Positions 3,443 to 42,026 of a DNA stretch of 64,000 bases are shown here, piece after piece. The position numbers and the translations under genes are program-made. The stretch is taken from positions 1 through 64,000 of the forward strand of contig CAMBBS010000010.1 in assembly GCA_945863875.1 (NCBI GenBank), read 5' to 3'. Position 1 is the first letter of the stretch. The number at the start of each line of letters is the position of its first letter. This stretch comes from Desulfopila aestuarii DSM 18488. Lineage in GTDB: Bacteria > Desulfobacterota > Desulfobulbia > Desulfobulbales > Desulfocapsaceae. The notes beneath the pieces were generated by a model. The model was not told where the DNA came from. It saw only the letters and a program-made list of their open reading frames with translations, and ran no database searches.

Positions 3443-3446
3443 CATT

Positions 3447-5716: not shown

Positions 5717-5755
5717 GATTGAGAATCAATGACTTATTTATGGAGGATTTACAAG

Positions 5756-8700
5756 ATGAAACTCTCGGTTGACGGTTTCTTGACCAGATATGAACGTGCA
5801 TCGAACCTGCTGTTTCAACTTATGCTGTACGCCATGCTTTTGGTGATCAGGGCCAAAAGGATGCTTATGCCCTCGTTCAGGCTGCGCTTGATGGAGAAGG
5901 ATCTGACTGCCCAGATTAAAATACGCGGCGATAGCTATGGGCGGGCGTACATCTTCAAAAATGGTAAGGTGTCCTCCGTAACAGGGGTGGCGGCAAATCC
6001 GGATGTCGGTATTGTTTTCACCAGTTCGGCCATAGCCGTGCGACTGATGCTGTCTTCTCGGGACTACCTCAGGCAGATCAACGCGATGAAAAATTTCCAG
6101 GTGGATGTCGAGGGAAAAGACGAGTGTGCCGTCTGGTTTATGCAGACCCTGAACAAGCTGCTCACTCTTTCCGAGGCTCCGCAATTCGGTATGCCTGTAG
6201 ACGAAGAGACGACCAGGTATGTCAATAACACCAACGGGGGACCTGTCTTTGTCTATGTAAAAAAAGGCAAGATCATTCGCATCACCCCTGTGGAATTCGA
6301 TGATACCGACGGCAAGTCGTGGACCATACATGCTCGAGGTAAATCTTTTACACCCCCGCGGAAGGGAACGGTAAGTCCCTATGTTTTAGGGCTGAAATCG
6401 ATGATTTATTCGAAAGACCGGCTGTTGTATCCGATGAAGCGGATAGATTTTGACCCTGACGGAGCGCGGAATTGCCAGAACCGAGGCATCTCAGGCTACG
6501 AGCAGATCAGTTGGGATAGGGCCCTTGATATCGTAGCGGCCGAGATTAAAAGAGTAAAACGAGAGCATGGTCCAGGCGCGATTATGAACGGTAGTGGTTC
6601 GCATCATACCTGGGGGAATATCGGCTACTGGCTGAGCGCCAAAACCCGTTTTATGAACACTATCGGATCGAGCCATGTGGTGCATAATCCCGATAGCTGG
6701 GAGGGCTGGTACTGGGGAGCCATGCATCACTGGGGCAACTCCATTCGAAATGGGGCGACAGACACCTACGGGACCGTTGAGGATTGTCTGAAAGAAGCAG
6801 AGATGATTGTTTTCTGGTCGAGCGATCCCGAATCGACAAGTGGCGTATACGGGGCCTTCGAAGGAACCGTGCGTCGGCAGTGGGCAAAGTCGCTGGGAAT
6901 TAAAATGGTCCACATTGATCCCTATTATAACCATACCGCGGCTCTTCTTGGCGGCAAGTGGATTGCACCACGGCCGGATACAGGAAATAGCATGTCGCTG
7001 GCCATCGCCTATGTCTGGATAAAAGAGGACCTGTACGACAAGAACTATGTTGCCAACCTGACCGTCGGCTTTGAAAAGTGGCGTGATTATATTCTCGGCC
7101 AGGTCGATGACATACCGAAGACACCGGAATGGCAGGAAGGGGAAACCAATGTGCCGGCACGTGTTGTCCGCGCTCTTGCACGCCAGTGGGGGAGCAGAAA
7201 GACCTATCTGTCGCCGGGGGGGCTGGCCGGTTTTGGCGGAGCCTGTCGATGTGCAACCGGAATTGAATGGGCCCGCTCCATGGTTTGCCTCATGGCCATG
7301 CAGGGCCTGGGCAAACCAGGGGTGAATATGGGCTGCCTGCAGCAGGGTGCCCCGGTGGACACCAATTTTTACTTTCCCGGTTATGCGGAGGGCGGGCTCT
7401 CGGGCGATCTGGACTATACCGGTCTGCGGGTCAGCATGTATCAACGAATGCCGCAGCTGCCGTCGATGAATTCCGTTTCCCAGATGATTCCACGATTACG
7501 CATTCCGGAGGCGATTCTTAACCAGTCCTGCGAGGGGTATCCTACTGATCCTAAGAGTATTGAAGGCCAGTTTAAAAAAATAACCTATCCCGCTCCAGGG
7601 CACTCACCGGCCAGGATGTACTATAAATATGGTGGGTCGCATTTTGGTACCATGGCCGATTCCAACCGTTTTGCCCGGGCCTATAGAAGTGACAATCTCG
7701 AATTCGTCGTCAATCAATCGATCTGGTTTGAGGGGGAGGCCAAGTTTGCCGATGTAATTTTGCCGGCATGTACCAACTTCGAACGGTGGGATATTGGCGA
7801 GACGGCGAACTCCGGAGGGTATAGTCATCATCAGTTTATTCAGTGGAACCATAGGGTGATCACCATGCAGCATAAATGCATTGAGCCGCTCGGTGAATCC
7901 AGGTCAGACTACCAGATTTTTCTCGATCTGGCCGAGCGGCTGGGGATGGGCGCTCTTTTTTCCGAAGGGATGACCGAACTGGAGTGGTGTCAGAGGCTGT
8001 TTAATGCGAGCGATCTGCCCACCGTGGTGTCATGGCGGGCATTTTTGAAAAAGGGATATTATGTTGTTCCGGCACCCAGGGAAGAAAACCGCGCCCCGGT
8101 GTCTTATCGCTGGTTTGCCGAAGGCAAAAAGAAAAATGTGCCGGAATTAACCCCATTACCTTCGGACTATACCGATGAGTGGCGAAAAGGTTTGCAGACA
8201 CAATCGGGCAAGCTCGAGTTCGAATCTTCCAGCCTGAAAAGATTTGCCCCGGACGACCCGGAGCGGCCGCCGATCTCCACGTTTATTCCCTCGTGGGAAG
8301 GGCATCACAACACCGAGCTCTATGCCAAATACCCTTTGAATCTGATTTCGCCCCATCCCCGCTATAGTTTTCATACCATGTTTGATGGGAAAGACTGCGT
8401 CATCAACGACGTAAAGGATCACCGGGTGCTGATTGACGGCTACTATTACTGGATTGTCAGGATTAACGTCGACGATGCCCGTAAACGACATATTAGCAAC
8501 AACAGTCTGGTCAGACTCTTTAACGACCGGGGGGAGGTGATTTGCGCCGCCCATATCACCGATCGGCTTCCTCCGGGAACCATGCAGTCACCGGAAGGAT
8601 CGGCCATCTACGATCCGATCGGTGAACCGGGAGAATCTCCTGACCGGGGCGGGTGCATCAATGTGCTCACGCCCAGCAGAAACATCATCAAAAAATCTCA

Positions 8701-8764
8701 CTCAACAGCCTCCAATTCCTGTCTGGTACAGGTTGAGTTATGGGAAGAAGGAGTGGCACAATGA
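5756..8764 (+). CDS. athL: Pyrogallol/phloroglucinol transhydroxylase-type large subunit with N-terminal SCP2-like domain
   Basis: 1002-residue molybdopterin enzyme of the DMSO reductase family, closest by recall to the large subunit of pyrogallol:phloroglucinol transhydroxylase (AthL, 875 residues). It lacks an N-terminal Fe-S motif, as AthL does. Residues His283, Tyr291, Asp313, Ser314 and Trp315 match AthL His144, Tyr152, Asp174, Ser175 (the Mo ligand) and Trp176 at a constant offset of 139. The first ~139 residues are extra: a hydrophobic/basic stretch (about 15-45) and then an SCP2 sterol-carrier-like fold (about 45-130, with NPDVGIVFTSS and MKNFQVDVEGKDE). The ATG at 5756 has GGAGG nine bases upstream; an ATG at 5729 has none. 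The stop overlaps athS1 as ATGA. Substrate could be pyrogallol, resorcinol or another polyhydroxybenzene. Confidence 0.87.
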   Translation: MKLSVDGFLTRYERASNLLFQLMLYAMLLVIRAKRMLMPSFRLRLMEKDLTAQIKIRGDSYGRAYIFKNGKVSSVTGVAANPDVGIVFTSSAIAVRLMLSSRDYLRQINAMKNFQVDVEGKDECAVWFMQTLNKLLTLSEAPQFGMPVDEETTRYVNNTNGGPVFVYVKKGKIIRITPVEFDDTDGKSWTIHARGKSFTPPRKGTVSPYVLGLKSMIYSKDRLLYPMKRIDFDPDGARNCQNRGISGYEQISWDRALDIVAAEIKRVKREHGPGAIMNGSGSHHTWGNIGYWLSAKTRFMNTIGSSHVVHNPDSWEGWYWGAMHHWGNSIRNGATDTYGTVEDCLKEAEMIVFWSSDPESTSGVYGAFEGTVRRQWAKSLGIKMVHIDPYYNHTAALLGGKWIAPRPDTGNSMSLAIAYVWIKEDLYDKNYVANLTVGFEKWRDYILGQVDDIPKTPEWQEGETNVPARVVRALARQWGSRKTYLSPGGLAGFGGACRCATGIEWARSMVCLMAMQGLGKPGVNMGCLQQGAPVDTNFYFPGYAEGGLSGDLDYTGLRVSMYQRMPQLPSMNSVSQMIPRLRIPEAILNQSCEGYPTDPKSIEGQFKKITYPAPGHSPARMYYKYGGSHFGTMADSNRFARAYRSDNLEFVVNQSIWFEGEAKFADVILPACTNFERWDIGETANSGGYSHHQFIQWNHRVITMQHKCIEPLGESRSDYQIFLDLAERLGMGALFSEGMTELEWCQRLFNASDLPTVVSWRAFLKKGYYVVPAPREENRAPVSYRWFAEGKKKNVPELTPLPSDYTDEWRKGLQTQSGKLEFESSSLKRFAPDDPERPPISTFIPSWEGHHNTELYAKYPLNLISPHPRYSFHTMFDGKDCVINDVKDHRVLIDGYYYWIVRINVDDARKRHISNNSLVRLFNDRGEVICAAHITDRLPPGTMQSPEGSAIYDPIGEPGESPDRGGCINVLTPSRNIIKKSHSTASNSCLVQVELWEEGVAQ

Positions 8765-9618
8765 AAAAATACAGCTTTGTCATTGATGTGGCCAAGTGTG
8801 AAAACTGCAATAATTGTTTTTTGTCCTGCAAGGATGAGCATTGCGGCAATGACTGGCCGGGCTACTCCCTCTCCCAGCCGCTGCATGGCCAGCGCTGGAT
8901 GAATATTTCGAGAAAAGAACGGGGGCAGTTTCCTCTCATTGATGTGGCCTATCTGCCGAAGCCTTGCATGCATTGTGACGATGCGCCCTGTATAAGCGCA
9001 GCAAAAAACAGTGCGGTGTATAAACGGCCGGATGGAATTGTGCTTATCGATCCGGAAAAAGCCAAAGGGCAAAAAGCGATTGCCGGTGCCTGTCCTTATG
9101 GCGCAATCTGGTGGAATGAAGAGGCGCAGGTGGTCCAGAAGTGTACCTTTTGCGCCCACTTGCTGGACAAGGGGTGGAAGGTTCCGAGATGTGTTCAGGT
9201 CTGCCCGACCGGGGCCTTGTCGATCCTGCATCTAGAGGAGGAGGCATTAGCCGCACTGGTAGCGTCGGAGCGTATGGAAACATTAGCATCCGAGAGGATG
9301 CCTACCCAGCCCAGGGTCTATTATAAAAATCTCCACCGGTTCAACAGCTGTATTATTGCCGGCAGTGTGGCCACGGGGGAGGAGGGAGCAACCGAATGTG
9401 TCGTCGGTGCAACAGTAAGGCTGCTGAAAGATGGCAAGACTTTTTCTGAACAGGAGTCGGATGATTTTGGGGACTTTAAGTTTGACGGGCTCCCGGAAAA
9501 GAGCGGCAGCTATGCACTGGAGGTGGTCTTTGCAGGAAAATCAGCAAGAATGGAAATCGGAAAACTGCTAAAAAGTAGTTCTGTCGGCACGCTGTGGATA
9601 GAGCATGTAGCGAAGTGA
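8761..9618 (+). CDS. athS: Transhydroxylase-type small subunit, three [4Fe-4S] clusters
   Basis: 285-residue electron-transfer subunit paired with the large subunit and translationally coupled to it (ATGA overlap, AAGGAG site). It has a ferredoxin-like region followed by a C-terminal transthyretin-like beta domain (about 205-285, VVGATVRLLKDG and DDFGDFKFDGL), exactly the architecture of AthS. Cysteine sets: C13-C16-C19-C23, then CMHCDDAPC, then a lone ACP, then CTFC with RCVQVCP. The set that should read CxxCxxCxxxC is KAKGQKAIAGAC, and the fourth Cys of the preceding set is also missing. One cluster is thus cleanly lost and three remain, as recalled for AthS. Confidence 0.87.
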   Translation: MKKYSFVIDVAKCENCNNCFLSCKDEHCGNDWPGYSLSQPLHGQRWMNISRKERGQFPLIDVAYLPKPCMHCDDAPCISAAKNSAVYKRPDGIVLIDPEKAKGQKAIAGACPYGAIWWNEEAQVVQKCTFCAHLLDKGWKVPRCVQVCPTGALSILHLEEEALAALVASERMETLASERMPTQPRVYYKNLHRFNSCIIAGSVATGEEGATECVVGATVRLLKDGKTFSEQESDDFGDFKFDGLPEKSGSYALEVVFAGKSARMEIGKLLKSSSVGTLWIEHVAK

Positions 9619-18712: not shown

Positions 18713-19519
18713 TTATTTGCCGGAATCAATCCTACAGGTACCGGTAGGGTCTATCATCGCCATAAAGCGAACCGGACAGGCGTCACCGTATTGAAATTTC
18801 CAAGGTGTTGCAGCAAATGTAGCGCGTTTGCCGGATAGTATGTCAACATCACCACCTACCTGTTCAATCGTTGGGATTCCGGCAGCTAACAGGATTTTGT
18901 GCGCCACATTCCATTCCGGATGTTCTTTTTCAGGGTCAAGGCCCGTGGCTTGTTCGTAGGCATAGGCCAGGCGGTTCATGGTGGGGCCACCGCGATGCGG
19001 ACCAAGGGAGGTCGCCAGAGGATGATCCACCTGAGGCATATCAACAGCAACGAGTTTACAGTCTTTTTTCACCAGCCATTCGGCAGCATCTTTGGACAGG
19101 CCTGGGGACTCACCGAAGTATTCTATGGCATCGGAATACTTGTGGTGCCAACCTGAGTTGATCACGACGATATCGCCCAGTTGCACACGGGATCCCGCTT
19201 CTTCCAGATCTTTTGCCGTGATGACCTGATAACTTTTTTTCGGAACGTGCAGGACAATGCCATTGCCGAAGAAGCGATCAACGGGGATGCCTGCCAGGTC
19301 AGCTGCTTTCTGGATCATGTGCAAGGGAGCATTCATATGAGTTCCGGTATGCATTACCGTATTGATCCGGTGAGCCATGACACCATGTTGCGCAAATTTA
19401 ACCGAACGGAACATTTTCACATCGTCTTGACCTGGATAGGATGGTACACCGTGCCCCCAGGGGTGGCTCAGTTCAATCGTCTGCAGCCCACTGTACGGGT
19501 CTGTTGTAACTGCTACCAT
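18713..19519 (-). CDS. Cyclase-family metal-dependent hydrolase, copy B
   Basis: 268-residue paralogue of the neighbouring cyclase-family protein and first gene of the leftward unit. Its metal site reads MHTGTHMNAPLH, with Asn where the family usually has Asp. The two copies therefore differ at a position next to the metal and may not share a substrate. The second conserved block is VAVDMPQVDHPLATSLG. The ends of A and B are alike (ATPWKFQYGDACPVRFMA versus AFPWRWTGGDGCIVRILA), which points to an old tandem duplication. Confidence 0.85.
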   Translation of the reverse strand: MVAVTTDPYSGLQTIELSHPWGHGVPSYPGQDDVKMFRSVKFAQHGVMAHRINTVMHTGTHMNAPLHMIQKAADLAGIPVDRFFGNGIVLHVPKKSYQVITAKDLEEAGSRVQLGDIVVINSGWHHKYSDAIEYFGESPGLSKDAAEWLVKKDCKLVAVDMPQVDHPLATSLGPHRGGPTMNRLAYAYEQATGLDPEKEHPEWNVAHKILLAAGIPTIEQVGGDVDILSGKRATFAATPWKFQYGDACPVRFMAMIDPTGTCRIDSGK

Positions 19520-24469: not shown

Positions 24470-25297
24470 CTATTTTGCTGCCATATCCATGGCAATATCG
24501 CCAAGTCCGCGATCAATGTCGGTTTTAATGCCGGCTATGGTCTGCTTGACACCATCTTTTTCAAAGGTGAGAGAATAACTCCTGTCATCTTGTAGTTCCT
24601 TGAACCAGAAATCGCCGAAATTCGTTGTTGTTTCGGTGAACTTTAAGCCGGATTCCTCGTCTGTCAGGGTGCAGGTTGCACCAATGATAACCTCTTTTTC
24701 TGACGGGTCATACAGGGTACCGGCAATAAATTTTTTCGGCAGACCTTTGTAATATACCCTCCCTTTGGTTCCGGCTTCCGGATTCAGCAGTTCAGCGTCT
24801 TTGATAAAATCGGCAAAATCCGCTTCTTCGCCAAACTTCAGTGCCTCGGTTGGGCACTGGTCGACACAACGGGGTACTGTCCACTCTTCATCATTATCGA
24901 GCAGGTGGCTGCAACCGGTACACTTTTGCGCAATATTCAGCTGCTCATTGAAGTAAATAGAGTTGTGTGGGCAGGTGTCAGCACAAAGTTTGCAGCCGGT
25001 GCATTTTTCCGGATCTATGATCACGATGCCGTCGTCGCGCTTGTAGATGGCATCAACCTTACATTCTTCTATACATGGAGCATCGTCACAATGATTACAG
25101 AGAAAAGGCACGTAGGAGACCCTGACGTGGGGCACATGGCCCCGGACTTTTTCCGTCAGACCAATCCAAAATTGGCCTGTGTCTGGCTGCGGTTTTGCAT
25201 AGGGTGTCCAGTCGTTCGCTACGTGCTCATCTTTACAGGCGATTTGACAGCAGTAGCAGCCGTTGCAAACTGAGAGATCTACAGTGAATACTTTCAT
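24470..25297 (-). CDS. Transhydroxylase-type small subunit, four [4Fe-4S] clusters
   Basis: 275-residue Fe-S subunit of the second molybdoenzyme, with the same layout as AthS1: ferredoxin region, then a transthyretin-like beta domain (about 195-275, VIIGATCTLTDEESGL and TNFGDFWFKEL). Cysteine sets are complete: C11-C14-C17-C21; CNHCDDAPCIEEC; CTGCKLCADTC; CTGC with RCVDQC. All sixteen ligands for four clusters are present, unlike AthS1. The start shares a base with the large-subunit stop (TAATG), with GGAGG inside the end of that gene. Confidence 0.87.
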   Translation of the reverse strand: MKVFTVDLSVCNGCYCCQIACKDEHVANDWTPYAKPQPDTGQFWIGLTEKVRGHVPHVRVSYVPFLCNHCDDAPCIEECKVDAIYKRDDGIVIIDPEKCTGCKLCADTCPHNSIYFNEQLNIAQKCTGCSHLLDNDEEWTVPRCVDQCPTEALKFGEEADFADFIKDAELLNPEAGTKGRVYYKGLPKKFIAGTLYDPSEKEVIIGATCTLTDEESGLKFTETTTNFGDFWFKELQDDRSYSLTFEKDGVKQTIAGIKTDIDRGLGDIAMDMAAK

Positions 25298-27912
25298 TAT
25301 TTTTTACCTCCGTCAACAATCCAGGCCTCAACGCGAAGACCTGATGCCGCGTCATACTTTCTATCAAAGGCTTCGGGGAAATCGCGTCGCCAGCCGTCCA
25401 TCTCTGCGCCACTCACTTTTTGCACCTCCACCAGGTAGCCACCGCCGATTTGACCGACACAGTTTTCCGAAGTAACGGCACCCGGGGTGATGGTGTTGAT
25501 GGCACCGCCACGTTCGATCGCGCCTGTCTTAATTGGATCGTGTCTCGCGCCGTGATCCATATAGGCGACACCATCACGCAGCCGTTCAGTAACATAAGCA
25601 CCGGCAAGAACTATTCCACGCTCGTTGAACACCTTGACGATATCACCGTTTTTAATGCCCCGTTTTTCCGCCTCTTTCGGGTTCAGCCAGCACGGTTCGT
25701 ACTTATATCCGTCGGGACCGGTTACCTTCATGGTGGGGGTTTCCCGTGTCCAGGTAATGTCGTCGCATTGGGCGTGAACGCGCCAGCGACCATGGTTGGA
25801 CATCTGCAGCAGGGGAAACATCTTCGCCCGGTGGCTGGACATCCTTTCGTCATGATTGTGGCTTTTTTCGATCCACTTGGGAATCGGTCCTCTTTCTTTA
25901 TCGTGAGGATAGGCCTTGGCGAGGGCTTCGGAATAAAACTCCAGTTTTCCTGTCGGGGTATTGAGTTTGTGTCCTTCCGGGTCCTCATAGAATTCACGGA
26001 AACCTGGAGGATCGTCTTCCCAGTCCGGATGCGTATTGTAAATCCAGTACTGCTTTTCTTGCAACTGTTCCCAGCTGACAAGTTTCTCGCCGCCCATATA
26101 GCCCCAGATGAGTTTTTGCAGATCGGCAGTGGTCTTGCCTTCAGTCATCTTTTCTTCCATACCTTCAAACTGCTTCGCCACTTCCAGGACGCATTGGGCA
26201 TCACTCTTTGATTCGCCGATCGGCTCGATGGCTTTTTCGGTTATCATGATATTGGGCTGCATCGTCCCTTGACGGATGTTGGTGACGATGTCGTCAACTT
26301 CCATATAGGTATTGGCCGGGAGAACGATATCGGCATAGACGCAATCGTTCTCAAACCACGGGTGTTGCGCGACGATGCACTCGACCTGCGGGCTCAGCAT
26401 GGCCAGTTCGGTCTCGTGGCCGTAGTTCCAGCAGGTGATTCTACAGGGACTGTCGGTCCAGATCATATGGATTCTAGAACCTTTTTCTTCTTTGGAAATC
26501 GGGAAGACATAGTGTTCGAATTGATCATGGGTCAACGCGTTCTGGGCTCCGGTGCCTCTAAAAGTGATCGGCTCGTCGGAGAGGATGGCATTTTGAATCA
26601 ATGTCTTGGGAATGACCTGTTGCTGCCATGCACTCACCGCACTGAGGACCGGCAAGGCGATGCGTTCTTCAATTTCCGGGTTCCAGAAAAATGTTCCGCC
26701 GAGTCCTTCGGCGCGAGGGAGGCCGAAATAGGTGAATTGATGCTGGTGCACACCTGGCCCTCCGAGTCCCTGCATGCCGAGCAGAATACACTCGAGACGG
26801 GCAGGTTCGTGCGAGAACGGTCCACGGATAAAACCACCGCCGAAATAGTGGGCGATGGAAGTGGTTTTGTCGGCAAATTCGCGGGCGAGAGCCTTGATGG
26901 TCCAGACAGGCACACCGCATTTTGGTGATGCCCACTCAGGAGTTTTGGCCACGTCGTCTTCTTTGCCCAGTACGTAGTCTGCAACCTTGTCCATGCCCAC
27001 CGTGTGCGTTTTGACGTACTCCTTGTCATAGGTGCCCTCGGTGAGCCACATATAGATGATGGCCAGCTGCAGGGCCGCATCGGTGTTGGGTAATACCGGG
27101 ATCCACTTGTCGGCATGGATGGCCGTACCATAGTTGCAGTCAGGACAGATGTACACCTGCTTGATGCCCACTTCAGTGAAAAAGTAGCAGAGTCTGCTGG
27201 CAAACTGACCGACGAAGCCCCATGGTGTGGTTTCTGGATCACAGCCCCAGAAAAGGACCATGTCAGCGTGCTCGATAGTATCTTTGACGATGTTGGCCGC
27301 CGGGTACATTATGCCCTGGGCTCCCTGGCCCCAGACGTGTTTGGCGCCCCAGTACCAGCCTTCCCAGCTGTCGGGATTGCGTACCTGGAGGGTGAAGCCG
27401 CCCAGGTATTCAAGCAGTACGCCGGGATGACCGTGCGGGGTGTTGATCGTTTTGCACTCTCCGTGGCCATCGCCCTGCATTAAAATACTGTTAACACCAT
27501 ATTCTTTGTGGCATCTTCGGATTTCGTCGGCAATCAGTTTGCTGGCCACATCCCATGAGATACGCTCAAATTTACTTTTCCCTCGGTTTTGTGTGTTTCT
27601 CTCGCCATTCGGGTCCCAGTCAACACGTTTCATGGGAAACGGCACCCGGTTTGGGGAGTAGACCCTTTTTTTGTAGGCAAGGGAGAATGGGCCGGGCAAG
27701 GATTTCCATGTCGGTCCGATGGATTTGCCGTCACGCGTCATCTTCCACTGGCGGACATCTTTCTTGTCGTATTTCCAGCCATACCGCATCGGGCGAACAC
27801 GGACGATCTTGCCGTCTTTGACGTCTACCATACCTTCGGCACCACCGCCAAAGTATCCGCCGAGGCCAAGCGATCTTAAGACCGTCTTGTCTTTTGTTTT
27901 GATTGGTTTCAT
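25297..27912 (-). CDS. Transhydroxylase/resorcinol hydroxylase-like molybdopterin large subunit, divergent
   Basis: 871-residue DMSO reductase-family molybdoenzyme without an N-terminal Fe-S motif and without the SCP2-like extension of AthL1. The length fits AthL (875). NPDSWEGW is kept, so Asp181, Ser182 (Mo ligand) and Trp183 match AthL Asp174, Ser175 and Trp176, and His150 matches His144. The residue at the place of AthL Tyr152 is Thr158, and the GGFGG/FYFPGYAEGG region is altered (TYFGLPRAEGLGG). Family relatives include pyrogallol transhydroxylase and resorcinol hydroxylase. It probably acts on a different phenolic substrate, or as a hydroxylase rather than a transhydroxylase. Confidence 0.8.
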   Translation of the reverse strand: MKPIKTKDKTVLRSLGLGGYFGGGAEGMVDVKDGKIVRVRPMRYGWKYDKKDVRQWKMTRDGKSIGPTWKSLPGPFSLAYKKRVYSPNRVPFPMKRVDWDPNGERNTQNRGKSKFERISWDVASKLIADEIRRCHKEYGVNSILMQGDGHGECKTINTPHGHPGVLLEYLGGFTLQVRNPDSWEGWYWGAKHVWGQGAQGIMYPAANIVKDTIEHADMVLFWGCDPETTPWGFVGQFASRLCYFFTEVGIKQVYICPDCNYGTAIHADKWIPVLPNTDAALQLAIIYMWLTEGTYDKEYVKTHTVGMDKVADYVLGKEDDVAKTPEWASPKCGVPVWTIKALAREFADKTTSIAHYFGGGFIRGPFSHEPARLECILLGMQGLGGPGVHQHQFTYFGLPRAEGLGGTFFWNPEIEERIALPVLSAVSAWQQQVIPKTLIQNAILSDEPITFRGTGAQNALTHDQFEHYVFPISKEEKGSRIHMIWTDSPCRITCWNYGHETELAMLSPQVECIVAQHPWFENDCVYADIVLPANTYMEVDDIVTNIRQGTMQPNIMITEKAIEPIGESKSDAQCVLEVAKQFEGMEEKMTEGKTTADLQKLIWGYMGGEKLVSWEQLQEKQYWIYNTHPDWEDDPPGFREFYEDPEGHKLNTPTGKLEFYSEALAKAYPHDKERGPIPKWIEKSHNHDERMSSHRAKMFPLLQMSNHGRWRVHAQCDDITWTRETPTMKVTGPDGYKYEPCWLNPKEAEKRGIKNGDIVKVFNERGIVLAGAYVTERLRDGVAYMDHGARHDPIKTGAIERGGAINTITPGAVTSENCVGQIGGGYLVEVQKVSGAEMDGWRRDFPEAFDRKYDAASGLRVEAWIVDGGKK

Positions 27913-31103: not shown

Positions 31104-31757
31104 TTGAAGAAGCAAAGTAACCTCACATTGAAAGTGTATCAGCAGATAATTGAGTTGATGCTTAATTATGAAATTGTCCCAGGCCAGAGGTTGGTTTTTA
31201 TTGATCTTGCAACACAGCTCAATGTCAGCAGAACACCGGTCAATAATGCCTTAAGCATTTTAGCGCAGCAAGGCTACTTGGATTTTGTGCCAAACCAGGG
31301 TTATTCGGTTCACAAGCTGACGCAGAAAGAGGCGGAAAATCACTATGCAATACGCGAAGTTCTCGAGGTGGGCTTTGTTGGCCAGGCAATTCGCAAAATG
31401 ACCGATAAGAAACTGCAAACCTTAAAAAAATGTAAATCCGATTACGAAAAAGCCATAACCGGCCATGTTACCCGGAAACTCTTTATTCTGGATACGGAGT
31501 TTCACGCAGGAATACTTGAGATGGTCGACAATGATATTTTGTCGGCCCAATATCGGGATATTTGCCAGAAGATCTTTTTACGATTTCGCACCGAAGACTT
31601 ACGTCTTAATCGGATCAAGGAGATTGAGCGAGAGCACCACGAAATTTTTGAGGCCATCCGTCTAAAAGACGTTGAACATGCCAAAGAACTTCTGAAATTG
31701 CACCATAAGTCTTCGCAAAAAAACCTCTTTCCAATCATATTTCCTTCCGAACAATAG
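31104..31757 (+). CDS. GntR-family regulator (FadR subfamily, FCD domain)
   Basis: 217-residue transcription factor. An N-terminal winged helix (about 10-75, LATQLNVSRTPVNNALSILA) is followed by an all-helical FCD ligand domain. The metal-binding residues are LDTEFH (Asp, His), EREHHE and LKLHHK, typical of FCD domains that bind a small carboxylate. The start is a TTG at 31104 with GGAG nine bases upstream. It diverges from the FmdE-like operon and precedes the FAH/MhpB-like operon. It is the best local candidate to bind the palindrome family, by position only. Confidence 0.88.
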   Translation: MKKQSNLTLKVYQQIIELMLNYEIVPGQRLVFIDLATQLNVSRTPVNNALSILAQQGYLDFVPNQGYSVHKLTQKEAENHYAIREVLEVGFVGQAIRKMTDKKLQTLKKCKSDYEKAITGHVTRKLFILDTEFHAGILEMVDNDILSAQYRDICQKIFLRFRTEDLRLNRIKEIEREHHEIFEAIRLKDVEHAKELLKLHHKSSQKNLFPIIFPSEQ

Positions 31758-32100: not shown

Positions 32101-33081
32101 ATGAAATTGGTCAGTTTCACCTGCCGGGAGCAGGAACGGATAGGGGTAATAAACGCGGAATCAGGGATTGTTGACCTGGATCTTGCCCTGTCTCAGCTGA
32201 AGGATCACCCCCGTACTATGATTGACTTCATAAAGTTGGGTGATGAGGGCCTGGCGCTTGCGGCACAGGCCTTGGCTGCAGGCAGCAGTTCTGCCATAAT
32301 TCCCGCAGACGAGGTAGTGTGGCTGCCTCCTGTTCCACATCCAGGAAAAATCTGTGGCGTGGCTCTCAACAATTCGGCCAGTAATAGCCGGAAAATATCC
32401 GCACCGGAGCATCCGGCTTTTTTCCTCAAACCACCGTCCTGTCTGGTGGGACATGGGCAGCCTCTGGTCATGCGAAGCTATTATGGCAGTATGCATCCGG
32501 AACCGGAGCTGGCAGTGATCATTGGTACGATTACCCGTGATGTGGATGCTGTGGATGCACCTAATTATATATATGGCTATGCCATCTTTAATGACATCAC
32601 CGGTAATGAAATGAGGGCGGAAGATCTCTTTCATTATCAAGCCCTCTACGCCTCAAAGGAAGATCCGGACAAGATTGAGCAGCGTGAACAGCATCTCTCC
32701 TATGCCGGGCGATATAAAGGGACGGACAACTTCGGTGTGCTTGGCCCCTGGCTGGTGACGAAAGATGAAGTGGGAGACCCGGATAATCTGGCGGTTACCT
32801 GCACGGTCAATGGCGAGACAGTGGCCGACGATAATACCCGGTATTATAATTACAAGGTTGCAGAAATTGTAAGTTTTATAAGTCAGTTCCATACTCTTTA
32901 TCCAGGCGATGTCATTTCCTGTGGGACCGCTTTCAAACCTTCGAAAAACAGGAAGTCCATTCACCAGGCGAATTTTCTGGTGACTGGTGGCCCCGTGGAA
33001 ATCAGCATAGAAAAACTTGGCACCCAATACAACCCGATCATTGTCGAACAGAGGGAGATCGGCAAATGGAGACTCGTCTAG
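32101..33081 (+). CDS. Fumarylacetoacetate hydrolase (FAH)-family protein
   Basis: 326-residue FAH-fold enzyme. Such enzymes hydrolyse or hydrate/decarboxylate beta-diketo acids such as fumarylacetoacetate or 2-oxohept-3-enedioate with a divalent metal. HPEPELAVIIG carries the metal-binding glutamates, and PGKICGVALNNSASN and YGYAIFNDITGNEMR are family blocks. It is the first gene of a four-gene operon with SnoaL-like, MhpB-like and BKACE genes, and overlaps the second by 16 bases. GGAGG precedes the ATG. In this setting it would act on a ring-cleavage product. Confidence 0.88.
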   Translation: MKLVSFTCREQERIGVINAESGIVDLDLALSQLKDHPRTMIDFIKLGDEGLALAAQALAAGSSSAIIPADEVVWLPPVPHPGKICGVALNNSASNSRKISAPEHPAFFLKPPSCLVGHGQPLVMRSYYGSMHPEPELAVIIGTITRDVDAVDAPNYIYGYAIFNDITGNEMRAEDLFHYQALYASKEDPDKIEQREQHLSYAGRYKGTDNFGVLGPWLVTKDEVGDPDNLAVTCTVNGETVADDNTRYYNYKVAEIVSFISQFHTLYPGDVISCGTAFKPSKNRKSIHQANFLVTGGPVEISIEKLGTQYNPIIVEQREIGKWRLV

Positions 33082-33536
33082 AGACGTTGGAGTATCTTGT
33101 AATGCGGCAGGCCATTGAGGCCTTGAATGCGGATTTTTGTTACTATCTTGATGGCAATATGATTGAAGAACTGGTCGGACTCTTTACTGAAGATGCCTGT
33201 TATAGCCATGGTCTTCGGAGCAGTTCCGGCCGGGATGAAATCCGTCAACTCTTTGTCAACAGGGTTATGGCCGGTGCACGCACCTCCAGGCATATGCAGA
33301 CCGGTCTGAGGATAACGCTGCTCGATCCCCGGAAAGCCCGAGGCCAAAGTGTCTGTTTGACTTTTGCCGGTGATGGCCCTCCTCCTGTTTCTCCGGCAAC
33401 ACCCTTTCTTGTCGCTGATTTTATTGATGAATATCAATACGGTATGGACGGTAAATGGCGGATTCGAAAAAGACATATTGAACGGATCTTTACAGCCTCC
33501 GATAATAAAGGGCCGGTTGGTCAAGCACCTTCATGA
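33066..33536 (+). CDS. SnoaL/NTF2-like protein
   Basis: 156-residue NTF2-fold protein of the SnoaL-like/ring-hydroxylating dioxygenase beta-subunit type (ALNADFCYYLDGNMIEELVG, LFTEDACYSHG, MQTGLRITLLD, WRIRKRHIERIF). These small cone-shaped domains act as isomerases, dehydratases or accessory subunits. No large-subunit partner with a Rieske centre is present, so a stand-alone enzyme is more likely. It overlaps the FAH-family gene by 16 bases, with GGGAG just upstream of its ATG. Confidence 0.78.
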   Translation: METRLETLEYLVMRQAIEALNADFCYYLDGNMIEELVGLFTEDACYSHGLRSSSGRDEIRQLFVNRVMAGARTSRHMQTGLRITLLDPRKARGQSVCLTFAGDGPPPVSPATPFLVADFIDEYQYGMDGKWRIRKRHIERIFTASDNKGPVGQAPS

Positions 33537-33667
33537 CCGTCGCAAGGTCTTGTGCCCTGCGAAGGCACCGAACTGATCACCACTGACAAGATATTGTCAA
33601 GAATGCAGATGAATTGACCATCTATTGGAGTTAGAAAAATAACTGTACACGACAGGAAGATACTATC

Positions 33668-34627
33668 ATGCAGACCAGATTGATATGTGCCTCGCACAGC
33701 CCCTTGCTGTACTGCTATAAAAAAGAACCCGAGAGATGGGCAGAGCTGCAGCATGCCTTTCAGGCTCAGGCGGAAGCGATTCGTGCTTTTGATCCCGAGC
33801 TGGTTGTAGCTTTCGGGTCAGACCATTTCAATGGATTTTTTCTGAAGATGATGCCGGCTTTTTGTGTTGGATTTCAGGCCACGGCGGTCGGGGATATCGG
33901 CGGTTTTCCTGGCTCTCTGGATGTTCCGGAAGATCTTGCGAAAGCCCTTGCCGATGATCTTCGAAAAGAAAAAATCGACACGGCCGTTTCTTACCGGATG
34001 ACCGTCGATCATGCCTTTTCTCAGACCATCCATCTTATGCTCGGCGGGCTCTCGGCTCGGCCGGTTATTCCCGTTTTTATCAACTGCATTACTCCGCCGT
34101 TTGTTCCGTTCGTCCGATCCCGCCTGCTTGGTGAAGCTGTTGCCCGTTTCAGTGCAAAACTTAAAAAGAGGGTGTTGTTTCTCGCATCTGGGGGGATGTC
34201 CCATCACCCGACGAGATATTATCCCGCTCTGGGCGACGGTGAGGAGCCGGTTGAGGCCTGGCAGATTTCGGGAGGTGATGATCCGAAATCACTCACCAGG
34301 CAGCAATGGCTCGAACGATTATACCACATGCACCATGAAGGGGCGGAGATGATTGCTCGAGGAGAGCGTACAGCTGTGCAGATGCATCTCAATGCGCAAG
34401 CTGACCACCGTTTTCTCAACACCATGCAACAAAATATGTTGGATGAATATGACGCCTGGGATCAAAATACCTTAATCGCCGAGGCCGGTATCGGGTCGAT
34501 GGAACTGCATACCTGGATCGCCGCTGCTGCAGCACACCGGCAGGCTGGAGGAAATTCACCGCGCATCAGCTTTTATGAGGTAATGCCGGAAATCGGTATC
34601 GCGGCCGGGGTGGTGTACGCGGACTAG
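33668..34627 (+). CDS. MhpB-like extradiol dioxygenase (LigB superfamily)
   Basis: 319-residue class III extradiol ring-cleavage dioxygenase, most like MhpB (2,3-dihydroxyphenylpropionate 1,2-dioxygenase, 314 residues). His10, His53, His115 and His179 stand in ASHSPLLY, SDHFNGFF, VDHAFSQ and SGGMSHHP. His115 and His179 have the same numbers as the catalytic pair of MhpB. Fe(II) and O2 would be needed for ring cleavage, which is surprising among so many anaerobic genes. It lies between the SnoaL-like and BKACE genes. Other LigB-superfamily roles without O2 cannot be ruled out. Confidence 0.87.
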   Translation: MQTRLICASHSPLLYCYKKEPERWAELQHAFQAQAEAIRAFDPELVVAFGSDHFNGFFLKMMPAFCVGFQATAVGDIGGFPGSLDVPEDLAKALADDLRKEKIDTAVSYRMTVDHAFSQTIHLMLGGLSARPVIPVFINCITPPFVPFVRSRLLGEAVARFSAKLKKRVLFLASGGMSHHPTRYYPALGDGEEPVEAWQISGGDDPKSLTRQQWLERLYHMHHEGAEMIARGERTAVQMHLNAQADHRFLNTMQQNMLDEYDAWDQNTLIAEAGIGSMELHTWIAAAAAHRQAGGNSPRISFYEVMPEIGIAAGVVYAD

Positions 34628-34646
34628 AAATCCAAAGAAGGGGAGA

Positions 34647-35465
34647 ATGATGGCCGGTGGACCAATGCTCATAGCTGTTGCGCCCAATGGTGCCCGAAAA
34701 ACAAAACTGGATCATGCGAAGTTGCCTCTCACCTCGGCTGAGTTAATAAAAACCGCCATAAGCTGCATGGAAGCGGGCAGTGCGATGATGCATTTTCATG
34801 TGCGTGACAGTTCCGGCAAACATACTCTGGACCACAAAATATATGGTCCGGTGCTGAGGGAACTGGAAACGGTTGTGGGGCAAAACATGTTGCTGCAGGT
34901 CTCCTCTGAATCAGCAGGAATATATCAGCCGGATGAACAGATTGAGCAGATGAAACGGTTGGCGCCGCATTGCCTTTCCTGTGGTCTTCGTGAGCTGGTT
35001 AAAGATCAAAACGACTATGCCGCGGGGCATGCATTTTTTTCCGAACTGCGGCGGGCTGGGGTTCTGGTGCAGTATATTCTCTATAGTCCTGCCGATGTCG
35101 AATGGTATGAGACCCTCTGTACCATGGGTGTTCTTCCCGGTGAAAACCATCTGTTGCTCTTTGTCCTTGGTCGATATAGGCAAGAGGGTAAACAAACCTG
35201 CGATCTGCATAGCTATGTTACCGCCCTTCAACGAAAGAGCCCGTGGATGGCCTGTGGTTTTGGGCAGGTTGAGCATAGGATAATGGCTCAGGCGGCAGAA
35301 CTTGGCGGCCATGCGCGGGTTGGCTTTGAAAATAACCAGCACCTGCCGGACGGTACGGAGGCTCCTGATAACGTTGCACTTGTCAAAATCACTTCGGATC
35401 TGGCTCGTTTTGCCGGACGGACGCCGGGTGATAAACACTTTGCCGAGTTTTTGTATGGACTCTAA
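34647..35465 (+). CDS. Beta-keto acid cleavage enzyme (BKACE, DUF849)
   Basis: 272-residue BKACE-family enzyme. These TIM-barrel, zinc-dependent enzymes exchange a beta-keto acid with acetyl-CoA, giving acetoacetate and a new CoA ester (the founding member acts on 3-keto-5-aminohexanoate). The metal site MMHFHVRDSSGKHTLD is near residue 50, and IMAQAAELGGHARVGFENN near 215 holds the second conserved block. GGGGAGA precedes the ATG. A role in cleaving a triketide-like product of ring opening (as in phloroglucinol breakdown) is possible; this is inference. Confidence 0.88.
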   Translation: MMAGGPMLIAVAPNGARKTKLDHAKLPLTSAELIKTAISCMEAGSAMMHFHVRDSSGKHTLDHKIYGPVLRELETVVGQNMLLQVSSESAGIYQPDEQIEQMKRLAPHCLSCGLRELVKDQNDYAAGHAFFSELRRAGVLVQYILYSPADVEWYETLCTMGVLPGENHLLLFVLGRYRQEGKQTCDLHSYVTALQRKSPWMACGFGQVEHRIMAQAAELGGHARVGFENNQHLPDGTEAPDNVALVKITSDLARFAGRTPGDKHFAEFLYGL

Positions 35466-36484: not shown

Positions 36485-37348
36485 TCAGTTTCGGGTCCTG
36501 ATTGGCCGCCGCAAAGAGTGTTGCCGGGCCTGCTGGTCAGCAGGTATTTGCGCCAAGATCTCTTCAGAGATGCCCATTTTCTCGACCAACAATTTAAGCC
36601 TGCCTTCATGAGACAGCGGTGTTGTGGTAAGCTTGCCGGAAGACAAGAAAATGACCGCCATTCCATTCGATATCCCCAGCACACTCTCTGCTGTATTGAG
36701 CCGAATATACAGGGCATTATTGAAAGGGCCTCGGCTTCGGCTTGCTTCATTTAGCTGCCGGAACGTATCTCTGGTGACAGAGAATCCTTCAATTCTGCAA
36801 CTACAGCCGTCCGGCATGTGCAGAGGACGCCAGCGGATGGCATAGTGCTGCAGGTGGGGGGAGCAGGTGAGACCCCAGGCCGGATGATCAACGGCAGAAG
36901 GTTGGTTCGGCGTCAGTAATAAAGGGGTGTTGTGCAGCATCGATGCATCGACGAGAAATTGTTTTCCTGCACATCGAACGGCAACGGTGCCGTGGTTTGG
37001 CGGCTGGTCGGACGTGGTCATCATAGTGGCGGTGCCCCGCCTGCATGAGAAGCCGAGAGCGTCAAGGAGGGCATGCAGCGCTGCATTTCCAGCCCAACAG
37101 GTACCACCCACCCCATAACGCAACCAGCCGCGGAAAAACTCCGCATCATCATGACCGGGCAGAGGAAGGGGGTTGTTTTGTGCCAGGTGGATACGTTTTC
37201 GGATGTTATCAAAAGGAACACTGCGGCACCAGGCCCCGTAGAGGCGGGTTAATCCGGTGCAATCGACCGAGGGTGGCTCTGAAAAGCCCAGTTTCATGAG
37301 AATTTGTTCGACTTGTTCGGGCGCTAACCCATTTTTTTTCCGGCACAT
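36485..37348 (-). CDS. Arylamine N-acetyltransferase
   Basis: 287-residue NAT-family enzyme, which acetylates aryl amines or hydrazines from acetyl-CoA through a cysteine. The triad is visible: Cys84 in GVGGTCWAGNAALHALL, His119 in PPNHGTVAV and Asp134 in FLVDAS. The ATG at 37348 with GGAGAA upstream is preferred over one at 37402. The C-terminal third is divergent. It diverges from the glycosyltransferase gene. NAT-like enzymes can also act in amide synthesis of natural products. Confidence 0.85.
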   Translation of the reverse strand: MCRKKNGLAPEQVEQILMKLGFSEPPSVDCTGLTRLYGAWCRSVPFDNIRKRIHLAQNNPLPLPGHDDAEFFRGWLRYGVGGTCWAGNAALHALLDALGFSCRRGTATMMTTSDQPPNHGTVAVRCAGKQFLVDASMLHNTPLLLTPNQPSAVDHPAWGLTCSPHLQHYAIRWRPLHMPDGCSCRIEGFSVTRDTFRQLNEASRSRGPFNNALYIRLNTAESVLGISNGMAVIFLSSGKLTTTPLSHEGRLKLLVEKMGISEEILAQIPADQQARQHSLRRPIRTRN

Positions 37349-37482
37349 CTGGTATCTTCTCCAATAGAGGAAATTTAGCCTGGACGACTGAAAATATATC
37401 ATTATCCGTTTAGGAGGGGCAATTGTTATCTTCGAAATAATCTTGGTAGCAAGGTTCTTTGTTTTTTAAGGAGAAAAGTTTC

Positions 37483-38676
37483 ATGCAGGAAAAGGGCAGG
37501 TATCCTTCCTTTCGTATCTTGTGTGTCGTTACCGGTTGCGGTGGTGGCGACTGGCATCCGCTGCTCGCCCTGGCAGCAGGCCTGCACCGGCGTGGCCATG
37601 CCTTGACTGTGGTCTGTGATAGGAGCACCCTGCAACACATCCAGGCCTCTGGTTTGACACCCCTCTGCCTTCCTTCAGGTCTTGACCTGGCACATGTTTT
37701 TGAACCGGCCCTTTCGCATCTTTTGTCCAGGCAGGAGAGACTTTTTCCGGGCGACGAAAACCCCCTGGAACAGTGGGGGATAGCCTGTGTTGATTTTGTC
37801 AAAACATCACTCAATGGCTGGCACCCTTCTTTGGTGATCACATCACTGCTGGCGGTAGGGCTCGGGGCGATTCTAGCCAGAAGTCTTGCAGCACCATGGT
37901 GTTTTCTCAATCCCTCTTTTTATTTTGACTCTCCCCAAGGGCACCTCCGGGACGAGGATTTTTCTGAGATGGGGGTGCAGATGTATCGGCACTGGCTGTT
38001 GCCGCTGGTGAAAAGGGCAAACCTGGTGCTCCATGCAACGGATCAGGCGTTTGATATCTGCCCTGCGCTTCTTTCTTCCCGGCATAGGTATGTTGGGCCG
38101 ATGTTTTGGGAAATGCCCGGCAACAGTCAGGAATTTTTGAAGAAGTCCGGTTGGCCATGGGTTCTTGTTGCCCTGAGTACAAGCCCCCAGCCCGGTGACC
38201 TGACCATAGTAAGAACTGCCTTAAAGGCACTTGAATCACTGGAATTCCGCATTCTGGTTACCCTGGCGGCCGGCCATGACCAGGGGGATCTTGGCCGGAT
38301 TGCCACCAATGTCCATGTGACGGGATATATCCCCCACAGCAAAGTTTTGCCCCATTGCCGTCTGGTCATAAGTCATGCCGGTCACGGAATTGTCATGAAG
38401 TCAATGGTCCATGGCATCCCCATGGTGCTCGTGCCATGGGGGCGGGATCAACCGGGTGTTGCCGCTCGTGCCGGGCGGCTGGGGACGGCAGTGGTTGTTT
38501 CACAGCGCGGGTGCTGTGTCGACGCTCTTGTTGATACCATTCAGATGATTCTAAATGATGAAAAATACCTGCAGAAGGCACAGGTGGTATCGAACCGGCT
38601 GCGAAATATGGATGGGGTGGCGAATGCTGTTGACCACATTGAACAGTTTCTGAAAAACAGTGAAGGGCTGTCGTGA
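37483..38676 (+). CDS. UGT-like glycosyltransferase (GT1 type)
   Basis: 397-residue GT-B fold glycosyltransferase. The N-terminal acceptor half starts FRILCVVTGCGGGDWHPLLA with AAGLHRRGHALTVVCD. The C-terminal donor half has the GT1 signature region VTGYIPHSKVLPHCRLVISH, AGHGIVMKSMVHGIPMVLVP and WGRDQPGVAARAG. Members glycosylate small lipophilic or phenolic molecules. AAGGAG lies upstream of the ATG at 37483. The acceptor is unknown; a phenolic compound would fit the neighbourhood. Confidence 0.88.
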   Translation: MQEKGRYPSFRILCVVTGCGGGDWHPLLALAAGLHRRGHALTVVCDRSTLQHIQASGLTPLCLPSGLDLAHVFEPALSHLLSRQERLFPGDENPLEQWGIACVDFVKTSLNGWHPSLVITSLLAVGLGAILARSLAAPWCFLNPSFYFDSPQGHLRDEDFSEMGVQMYRHWLLPLVKRANLVLHATDQAFDICPALLSSRHRYVGPMFWEMPGNSQEFLKKSGWPWVLVALSTSPQPGDLTIVRTALKALESLEFRILVTLAAGHDQGDLGRIATNVHVTGYIPHSKVLPHCRLVISHAGHGIVMKSMVHGIPMVLVPWGRDQPGVAARAGRLGTAVVVSQRGCCVDALVDTIQMILNDEKYLQKAQVVSNRLRNMDGVANAVDHIEQFLKNSEGLS

Positions 38677-38862: not shown

Positions 38863-39693
38863 ATGAGTGGAAAAACAGACCAGAGCAGGAAGGAACGACA
38901 AGGGTCGATCGTTTTTATTTCCCATGGCGGTGGACCATGGCCCCTGCTTAACGATCCTCGACATACAAATCTTATCGAATTTTTTAAAAAGGTTCCGTCG
39001 ACACTTATTTCTCCCTCTGCAATACTGGTGATCAGTGCCCATTGGGAAGAAGATGCGCCTGCGATTCAAAGCAATCGGCAGCCGGAAATGCTCTATGATT
39101 ATTATGGATTTCCTGAAGAGTCTTATCAAATCACCTATCCTGCGCCGGGGCAACCTGAACTTGCCGCTGACATATCGGCTATACTGACTAAAAGCGGTAT
39201 AAAGACGCGCTTGGACTGTCATCGCGGCTTCGACCATGGCCTTTTTGTCCCTTTAAAGATCATGTATCCGGCAGCGACAATTCCATGTCTACAGTTATCT
39301 CTACTGAAAAGCCTCGATCCAGCGGAGCATATTCATTTAGGAAGGGCTCTGCGAGAATTGCGGCAAAAGAATATATTAATCATCGGTTCGGGCTCTTCCT
39401 TTCATAACCTTCGCGCCTTTCGAGAACCACCGACGCAGGAAACAATGGCCCGGAATGAAGCGTTTGAAAACTGGCTCAGGGAGGTTATGACAAACAGGCT
39501 ATGGTCCGAAAGCGAAAGAGAACGGCAACTGACCAACTGGTTCGACGCTCCCGGTGCGAGATATTGTCATCCTCGCGAGGAACATTTATTACCCTTGCAT
39601 GTCTGCTATGGGGTGGCCGAAGGTCCCGCGGATAGGGTTATAGACGTTGCATATATGGAGAGAAAAGCAAGTATGTATGTCTGGTCGATTTAA
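38863..39693 (+). CDS. YgiD-like extradiol dioxygenase (LigB superfamily)
   Basis: 276-residue class III dioxygenase of the YgiD/4,5-DOPA dioxygenase type. Metal and catalytic histidines lie in ISHGGGPWPLL, VISAHWEED, CHRGFDHGLFVPLK and GSGSSFHNLR. An in-frame TTG at 38722 would add 47 residues unlike the family, so ATG 38863 with AGGG upstream is chosen. It is the second LigB-superfamily enzyme in 6 kb but is not close to the MhpB-like one. Its substrate is probably a catechol. Confidence 0.88.
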   Translation: MSGKTDQSRKERQGSIVFISHGGGPWPLLNDPRHTNLIEFFKKVPSTLISPSAILVISAHWEEDAPAIQSNRQPEMLYDYYGFPEESYQITYPAPGQPELAADISAILTKSGIKTRLDCHRGFDHGLFVPLKIMYPAATIPCLQLSLLKSLDPAEHIHLGRALRELRQKNILIIGSGSSFHNLRAFREPPTQETMARNEAFENWLREVMTNRLWSESERERQLTNWFDAPGARYCHPREEHLLPLHVCYGVAEGPADRVIDVAYMERKASMYVWSI

Positions 39694-40650: not shown

Positions 40651-40730
40651 TATTGCCGAACAAATTGGATAAATATGTGTACCACGTCCAGGGGTCATTG
40701 TACAATGATGAACAAAGGATACGACCAGCC

Positions 40731-42026
40731 ATGCAAAACGCCTTCGTCCGATCCATATACGGTGCCGTTTCTTTTTCGCTGCCCGCCACCTGGGAGATTC
40801 TGACCCTGGCCGATTTTCCCGAATCGCGCCTTGCCGTCGAAGTTCAGGCATTGGCAACCCTGGCATTACAGTCTCCTTTGGGAACAGTCCCCCTACAAGA
40901 GCAACTCACTGCAGAGAGTACCGTTTGTATTCTTGTCGAGGACCTGACCAGGACCTCGCCCAAAAAGATTATTTTGCGAGTCGTTCTCGATATCCTTCGG
41001 GAAATCGGCATCCCCACCGACAATATTTCAATTGTCGTAGCGCTCGGAACTCACTGTCCGCTCAGCCGCCGTGAATTGGCAGACGCTTTCGGTGCAGAGA
41101 CTGTTGCCGAATACACTTTTTTCAACCACGACTGTCATGCCGACGATCTTGTGCCTATCGCCCAGCTGCAAAGCGGTGCTGTCGTCAAGATCGACAGGAG
41201 GGCACATGCCGCGGATTTTCGCCTCGGCATCGGCTCGATCTTTCCGCATCCCCTCAACGGCTTCGGAGGCGGCGGTAAAATTCTCTTTCCCGGAATCGCA
41301 GACTATCACTCCATTTTTGAGCATCACCTGCGCCACAGTTTTCGCGGCAACAGTGCCCTCGGCTTTTTGGATGGTAACGAATTTCACCATGAAATCAATG
41401 CCATGGCCCAGGCAGGGCGGCTGAATTTTATCGTCAACAGCGTTCTCGATCACAACGATGAACTGCATCAGGTGGTTGCCGGGAATCCGGTCACTGCTCA
41501 TCAGGTCGGGGTGGAGATATGTCGTGCTATCACCTCACGGCAATTTCAACAAAAAGCCGATATAACAATCATCTCGGCCTTTCCTTACACTAAAGGGCCG
41601 CAGATCATGAAACCGCTTGCTCCGGCGGAGATTATAACCAGGCAAGGAGGGTGTGTTGTCCTGTATGCAAACTGCACGTCCCCCTTGCCGGAGGAATATT
41701 TTAAAGCGTGTGAAAAATTCAGGGCGGAGCACCAGGGGGGATTGCGCCAAGCGGTCTTGAGCCACTTCCAAAATAATTGTCGGATAATGCCGGATGCTCC
41801 TCCCGAGCTCAACATGTCCATGGCTCAGTTGATGTTGGCCCTCAATGACTATTCGGTGATTCTTGTTACAGCTGATATCCCGCCAAAACAGGCAGAACGA
41901 CTGGGGGTAACAGCAGTTACACAGCTTAACCAGGCCATAACATTATGCAATGAGCGATACAGTCGGCCGTCGGTCAATATTGTGCCGTCCGGTGGGGTCA
42001 TCTTGCCTGTTTTGCCGAAGTCTTAG
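40731..42026 (+). CDS. LarA-family nickel-pincer racemase/epimerase
   Basis: 431-residue member of the LarA family (lactate racemase, 424 residues), whose nickel-pincer nucleotide is tethered to a lysine. With ATG 40731 as start, the catalytic residues align almost number for number: Arg74 (LarA Arg75) in EDLTR, His108 in LGTHCP, and His173 and Lys183 (LarA His174, Lys184) in FPHPLNGFGGGGKILFPGIA. A TTG further upstream at 40653 is unlikely. The cofactor genes larB, larC and larE are not in the window. Family members act on various 2-hydroxyacids; the substrate here is probably that of the co-transcribed dehydrogenase. Confidence 0.85.
   Translation: MQNAFVRSIYGAVSFSLPATWEILTLADFPESRLAVEVQALATLALQSPLGTVPLQEQLTAESTVCILVEDLTRTSPKKIILRVVLDILREIGIPTDNISIVVALGTHCPLSRRELADAFGAETVAEYTFFNHDCHADDLVPIAQLQSGAVVKIDRRAHAADFRLGIGSIFPHPLNGFGGGGKILFPGIADYHSIFEHHLRHSFRGNSALGFLDGNEFHHEINAMAQAGRLNFIVNSVLDHNDELHQVVAGNPVTAHQVGVEICRAITSRQFQQKADITIISAFPYTKGPQIMKPLAPAEIITRQGGCVVLYANCTSPLPEEYFKACEKFRAEHQGGLRQAVLSHFQNNCRIMPDAPPELNMSMAQLMLALNDYSVILVTADIPPKQAERLGVTAVTQLNQAITLCNERYSRPSVNIVPSGGVILPVLPKS

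Follow-up and report, generated by a model that had tools for sequence, protein, structure and literature searches.

The described systems closest to the locus reported here are the 3-carboxyethylcatechol 2,3-dioxygenase MhpB of E. coli (PDB 8k04), the homoprotocatechuate (hpa) meta-cleavage pathway, 4,5-DOPA dioxygenase/YgiD, the pyrogallol hydroxytransferase of PDB entry 4v4c, which we take to come from Pelobacter, and an anaerobic phloroglucinol pathway; ring opening by sulfate reducers is generally taken as O2-independent. We analysed a window, that is, the whole stretch of 64,000 nucleotides of contig CAMBBS010000010.1 (assembly GCA_945863875.1, family Desulfocapsaceae) to which the coordinates below refer, and which contains an operon made of a GntR/FCD regulator gene followed by FAH-family, SnoaL_4, MhpB-like and BKACE (beta-keto acid cleavage enzyme) genes. 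The parts of this operon are known but unusually combined, and the central one belongs to a separate MhpB subfamily. We propose, at a probability of about 0.72, that this sulfate reducer tolerates oxygen and that the operon serves it as an O2-dependent branch of polyphenol breakdown, joined to an anaerobic polyphenol island; it probably opens plant-phenol rings with oxygen, by a gene set also present in oxygen-breathing marine bacteria. An extradiol operon together with transhydroxylase genes suggests that, at oxic-anoxic boundaries, some Desulfocapsaceae do not merely remove O2 but can also employ it as a co-substrate for polyphenols. No extradiol operon in a sulfate reducer was found among the literature titles and abstract openings searched, a search mostly outside subscription journals, and the accessible part of a review on sulfate reducers (PMC10591310) holds no word starting with 'oxygenase', words such as dioxygenase lying outside that search.

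The product of the central gene is predicted to be a class III extradiol dioxygenase and represents a subfamily of its own. In an alignment of the window protein with E. coli MhpB and 16 relatives, H10, H53, E279, H115 and H179 are identical across all 18 sequences. By analogy with LigAB we take the first three to be the 2-His-1-carboxylate metal ligands, while His115 and His179 of MhpB are presumably its acid-base residues; the original prediction that both are kept at the MhpB numbers was correct, the E. coli residues aligning to window residues 115 and 179. The AlphaFold model (pLDDT 86.9, pTM 0.89) is closest to E. coli MhpB among PDB chains (TM-score 0.90, 40% identity, E 1.8e-29) and reaches a TM-score of 0.70 against 1bou; all 32 fold matches at E<=0.001 are LigB-superfamily chains, almost all of them named dioxygenases. 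The two MhpB proteins thus share fold, metal and acid-base residues and length. They differ, however, in that the window protein belongs to a separate clade on a long stem and misses the NCBIfam equivalog cut-offs for MhpB (NF009910, 274.6 against 291; NF009908, 258.1 against 467; NF009907, 234.8 against 549), and in that the window operon is without mhpA, C, D, F and E. The neighbours rule out a canonical mhp operon: mhpC, mhpD, mhpE and mhpF are not beside the MhpB-like gene, and GntR, FAH, SnoaL_4 and BKACE genes are there instead. The subfamily comprises 19 sequences, namely the window protein, 10 others from sulfate reducers and 8 from Gammaproteobacteria, and is set apart from canonical MhpB with supports of 100/98 and 100/100 in two trees, the second of which excludes four long-branch rows (L045-L048) and both of which carry a long-branch warning. 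In both, the gammaproteobacterial sequences nest among the sulfate-reducer diversity; a tree that unites the sulfate reducers in one clade could not be rejected (p-AU 0.207), and the trees do not resolve the direction of gene transfer between the two groups. The subfamily is small; one of its carriers, Desulfopila aestuarii DSM 18488, is in culture. From its residues and fold, we infer that the MhpB-like protein would cleave catechols in an O2-dependent manner.

The four genes from FAH to BKACE were predicted to form one operon and this holds: four open reading frames lie on the same strand and all four products pass the Pfam curated cut-offs. FAH and SnoaL_4 overlap by 16 nt, 131 nt separate SnoaL_4 from MhpB and 19 nt MhpB from BKACE; the GntR protein, encoded on the same + strand and ending 343 nt before the FAH start, would be the regulator. 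A promoter scan found 7 sites against 7.4 expected, and a terminator scan 12 against 5.9 expected, none of which was assigned as the operon end. Chance does not explain the arrangement, since the genes stand in this order in further genera and in a second phylum. We compared 18 loci, 10 from sulfate reducers and 8 from Gammaproteobacteria (L018 and L020, from one metagenome-assembled genome (MAG), were counted as two; L032 and L026, which duplicate L017 and L016, respectively, were omitted). FAH is upstream of MhpB in 17/18 and a full SnoaL_4 is present in 15/18; BKACE adjoins MhpB in 12 (9/10 sulfate-reducer and 3/8 gammaproteobacterial loci), and a GntR homologue is near the operon in 8/10 and 0/8, respectively. 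The core is therefore FAH-SnoaL_4-MhpB, BKACE and the regulator being mainly sulfate-reducer parts. One Desulfobacula locus (L024) is reduced to MhpB and a SnoaL_4 tail. As to distribution, the MhpB-like gene occurs in 10 of 93 Desulfocapsaceae genomes (at least 68% identity, 5 of 18 genera), free of stops in all ten, and a sample of 395 genomes of the phylum gave a single match, the host itself. Twelve of 341 genomes in the order around a Halioglobus MAG match at E<=1e-20; three of these (4 copies, 60-69% identical) carry the subfamily, the remaining matches being 27-40% identical. A scan of named genomes gave nine loci, from Desulfopila, a Desulfofustis MAG, a Desulfobacula MAG and marine gammaproteobacterial MAGs, and the viral contigs searched contained no MhpB relative.

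In Gammaproteobacteria, the core appears to go with aerobic meta-cleavage: in one genome it continues a run of hpa genes and a second has such genes nearby, the hpa profile comparison having covered two of the eight loci. The first, MAG G514, carries on one strand hpaE-hpaF-hpaH-hpaI-ligA-like-ligB-like-FAH-SnoaL_4-MhpB, with HpaE (805.5, cut-off 638.35) and HpaH (424.4, cut-off 351.5) above the NCBIfam thresholds. In L018, HpaE (812.1) and HpaD (473.0, cut-off 315.95) pass and lie ~5-8 kb from the operon on the opposite strand. The likeness to the hpa pathway consists in this placement of gammaproteobacterial operons within (L058) or near (L018) hpa genes and in the resemblance of the window FAH to HpaG; unlike that pathway, the window operon and its scanned neighbours lack homologues of hpaE, D, H and I. 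Of seven gammaproteobacterial genomes tested for AthL-type enzymes, the molybdoenzymes discussed below, six had none, G514 being the exception, so that in Gammaproteobacteria the operon is independent of them; in the same test, each of four sulfate-reducer genomes gave three AthL matches. Several secreted DUF6152-type proteins surround the gammaproteobacterial operons (L020 13246-14675, L018 3414-8270); PF19649 was confirmed in two of them (L018 7038-8267 and L022 3088-4191), the others being recognised by sequence likeness.

Extradiol dioxygenases in an anaerobic neighbourhood had suggested either that the organism meets oxygen or that its LigB proteins are not oxygenases. The search of the host genome (4,685,841 bases, 93 contigs, 98.5% complete) for respiratory oxidases, which the original prediction had called for, was positive: it encodes a full-length CydA (528.7 bits) followed by a frame of 377 residues that we read as CydB, and a COX1 (457.8 bits) within a SCO-COX1-COX3-COX2-CtaB run in which the frames beside COX1 were assigned by inspection and not by profile. 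A strict-anaerobe reading of the host is ruled out by CydAB and this cytochrome c oxidase operon. Nor is the host an ordinary aerobe, which would have made the operon ordinary: it has dsrA (577.4 bits, cut-off 392.85) and belongs to the Desulfocapsaceae. The cell is thus equipped for contact with O2 and for its reduction, which mostly resolves the oxygen paradox, and the combination of an O2-type operon with anaerobic genes is unusual, not paradoxical. The oxidases thus favour contact with oxygen, and non-oxygenase chemistry has no positive evidence beyond the company that the operon keeps. COX1 is present in 9 of the 10 MhpB-positive Desulfocapsaceae genomes and in all seven genomes behind the named loci, one of which, Desulfopila aestuarii, is the same species as family genome G035. 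Across the family MhpB and COX1 are associated (p 0.008); we do not use this as support for O2 use, because the association is gone among AthL-positive genomes.

We infer the substrate, the order of the steps and the fate of the cleavage product as follows. The MhpB-like Fe(II) enzyme would use O2 to cleave a catechol or trihydroxybenzene beside its hydroxyls; the FAH enzyme would hydrolyse, isomerise or decarboxylate the resulting 2-oxo-dienoate, and the SnoaL_4 protein, of the NTF2 type, probably performs a hydration, dehydration or lactone step. From a beta-keto acid and acetyl-CoA, BKACE would then form acetoacetate together with an acyl-CoA that passes into the usual acyl-CoA metabolism. 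When O2 is absent, polyphenols would be processed within this island by molybdenum transhydroxylation and reduction. FAH is below every NCBIfam equivalog cut-off; its best scores, to 2,4-diketo-acid hydrolase (139.5 against 500) and HpaG (133.3 against 276.4), would suit the product of a trihydroxylated ring, though with both cut-offs missed. The SnoaL_4 protein is perhaps a dehydratase or isomerase acting on the ring-cleavage product. Its predicted model (pLDDT 82.0) is closest to the putative scytalone dehydratase 3ef8 (Z 18.3, root-mean-square deviation 2.5 over 132 residues), tied with 2rgq, of unknown function, and others; the fold names no function, because 996 of 1000 chains reach Z >=5. 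BKACE is the sole match to its family in the host genome. That it could be the triacetate acetoacetate-lyase of the phloroglucinol route, acting on 3,5-dioxohexanoate, was rejected, since it scores 56.8 against a cut-off of 430 with NF053538, which we take to be the model of that enzyme.

Table 1. Position of the operon genes and of related features in the window.
Feature	Position	Strand	Evidence
GntR/FCD regulator, predicted for the operon	31104..31757	+	Pfam GntR 43 bits, FCD 71.8 bits
FAH-family hydrolase/decarboxylase/isomerase	32101..33081	+	Pfam FAA_hydrolase 153.1 bits
SnoaL_4 / NTF2-like protein	33066..33536	+	Pfam SnoaL_4 72.3 bits
MhpB-like class III extradiol dioxygenase (predicted)	33668..34627	+	LigB (PF02900) 121.7 bits, cut-off 26.3
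BKACE beta-keto acid cleavage enzyme	34647..35465	+	Pfam BKACE 181.7 bits
Second LigB-superfamily protein, DODA/YgiD branch	38863..39693 (ATG at 38863)	+	LigB 106.2 bits; 163.0 bits to 8in2 4,5-DOPA dioxygenase
AthL1/AthS1, close pyrogallol hydroxytransferase homologue	5729..9618	+	1043.1 bits to PDB 4v4c
AthS2/AthL2, pyrogallol-hydroxytransferase-like molybdoenzyme and FeS subunit	24470..27912	-	365.3 bits to 4v4c

The surroundings of the operon are of the anaerobic type, as first proposed: the window encodes two pyrogallol-hydroxytransferase-like proteins and a ferredoxin oxidoreductase (53125-55620), and dsrA lies elsewhere in the genome. AthL1 (5729-8764) aligns over the full length of 4v4c, carries the AhtL-like domain PF21423 (105.3 bits) and on both counts matches pyrogallol hydroxytransferase; unlike 4v4c, it has ~150 extra N-terminal residues without Pfam match, the alignment starting at residue 160. 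Similarly long AthL frames (1005-1023 amino acids) occur in G039, G490 (Desulfopila), G489 (Desulfobacula) and the gammaproteobacterial G514. AthL2 (25297-27912) is more distant and, being without the SHH and YFPGYAEGG stretches common to AthL1 and 4v4c, probably catalyses a different reaction. Among 91 Desulfocapsaceae genomes, an AthL match (E<=1e-100) is found in 10/10 MhpB-positive and 11/81 MhpB-negative ones (Fisher p 5.5e-8, uncorrected for kinship). All ten MhpB-positive genomes, and nine MhpB-negative ones, have an AthL2 copy at least 86% identical; in the other nine MhpB-positive genomes AthL2 is 86-97% identical and thereby better conserved than MhpB itself, at 68-91%. This pairing suggests a polyphenol such as pyrogallol as the substrate of the operon. 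In Desulfopila L016, ~2.5 kb separate the AthL1 homologue (2110-6017) from the operon; two genes in this interval were named by eye, as a sigma-54-type regulator and as flavin-reductase-like. Past the window end (L054 988-10332, contig C10 64988-74332), a third AthL-like frame precedes frames that by eye resemble cupin, short-chain dehydrogenase, acyl-CoA synthetase, DUF35 and thiolase proteins, and a similar gene set, again judged by eye, seems to follow the operon in L016. Two neighbouring PF04199 cyclase-family genes lie beside a TRAP transporter at 17902-19519; PF04199 is presumably the family of dihydrophloroglucinol cyclohydrolase, in which case cyclase-family proteins are, together with BKACE, a feature that the window shares with the phloroglucinol pathway of Clostridium scatologenes.

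Several observations weigh against O2-dependent cleavage by the operon: (i), NF009910, the model of 3-carboxyethylcatechol 2,3-dioxygenase, is missed, if narrowly. (ii), the subfamily stem is long (2.2 + 4.2 changes per site in the second tree) and the chemistry may have shifted along it. (iii), within the Desulfocapsaceae, the MhpB-like gene is found only in genomes with the anaerobic-type AthL2. (iv), among the 21 AthL-positive genomes, MhpB and COX1 are not associated (9/10 vs 10/11, p 0.79), and of the MhpB-positive genomes G066 (85% complete) gave no match to COX1 and G031 no more than a fragment of it. (v), in G514, HpaI (367.7 against 368.8), HpaF (114.6 against 215) and the LigA-like protein (21.6 against 161) remain under their cut-offs and, (vi), the bd and heme-copper oxidases encoded by Desulfobulbales are interpreted, in the accessible part of the published account, as means of O2 detoxification and aerotolerance (PMC8170396).

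Points (ii) and (iii) would also suit a metal site that opens, independently of O2, a polyphenol made by AthL1 and AthL2, either by hydrolysing a cyclic di- or triketone tautomer or by a retro-Claisen step, with FAH and BKACE finishing the degradation anaerobically. We consider this unlikely, and less likely than O2-dependent cleavage: both MhpB acid-base histidines are retained, one aerobic-type gammaproteobacterium has the operon core directly after hpa genes, which require O2, most of the gammaproteobacterial genomes tested have no AthL, and we know of no LigB-superfamily hydrolase. In its favour, AthL2 is present in every MhpB-positive family genome and any AthL at all in 11/81 of the others; furthermore, the operon encodes the only BKACE of the genome, and the anaerobic phloroglucinol route of C. 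scatologenes, as given in the accessible part of its description, ends with a BKACE-family enzyme (PMC10470551). That route comprises four enzymes, none of them of the LigB superfamily in the same text, and the window BKACE is far under the 3,5-dioxohexanoate model. The general proposition that a LigB-superfamily enzyme of a sulfate reducer opens polyphenol rings without O2, in series with AthL-family molybdenum transhydroxylases, is likewise improbable; if true, it would mean anaerobic cleavage by a fold so far tied to O2.

Point (vi) and the presence of two LigB enzymes inside 6 kb would suit another scenario, in which these enzymes clear autoxidising catechols and O2 upon exposure to air, with little gain of carbon. 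The original prediction had offered such a micro-oxic detoxification of catechols. Its premise of oxygen contact fits the host oxidases, but detoxification itself was not borne out, a catabolic side branch fitting the gene content equally. FAH, SnoaL_4, BKACE and the nearby TRAP transporters rather indicate use of the carbon skeleton, and we regard clearance as an improbable main role for the operon. Finally, it is very improbable that the genes are a recent acquisition from marine aerobes or an unexpressed relict, as their patchy presence in the family and phylum and the reduced Desulfobacula locus might suggest, given that the gene is intact in ten family genomes of five genera, that a regulator is nearby in most sulfate-reducer loci and that the gammaproteobacterial sequences fall inside the sulfate-reducer diversity, although one sulfate-reducer clade is not rejected.

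The presence of a second LigB-superfamily enzyme at 38863 was confirmed, and the protein was placed in the DODA/YgiD branch. It resembles 4,5-DOPA dioxygenase and is nonetheless under the cut-off of the corresponding NCBIfam model (PRK10628, 155.6 against 233); locus L025 has an 89.5% identical copy at the corresponding place. This protein and the MhpB-like one are the only two PF02900 matches in the 4.69 Mb host genome. Between the two LigB genes, at 36485-38676, are an arylamine N-acetyltransferase-like gene and a macrolide-type glycosyltransferase-like gene. Further on, 40653-42026 encodes a protein resembling LarA-type nickel-dependent racemases (250.6 bits against a cut-off of 500 with the malate racemase model); downstream of it are a TRAP transporter and an FAD/FeS dehydrogenase-like gene.

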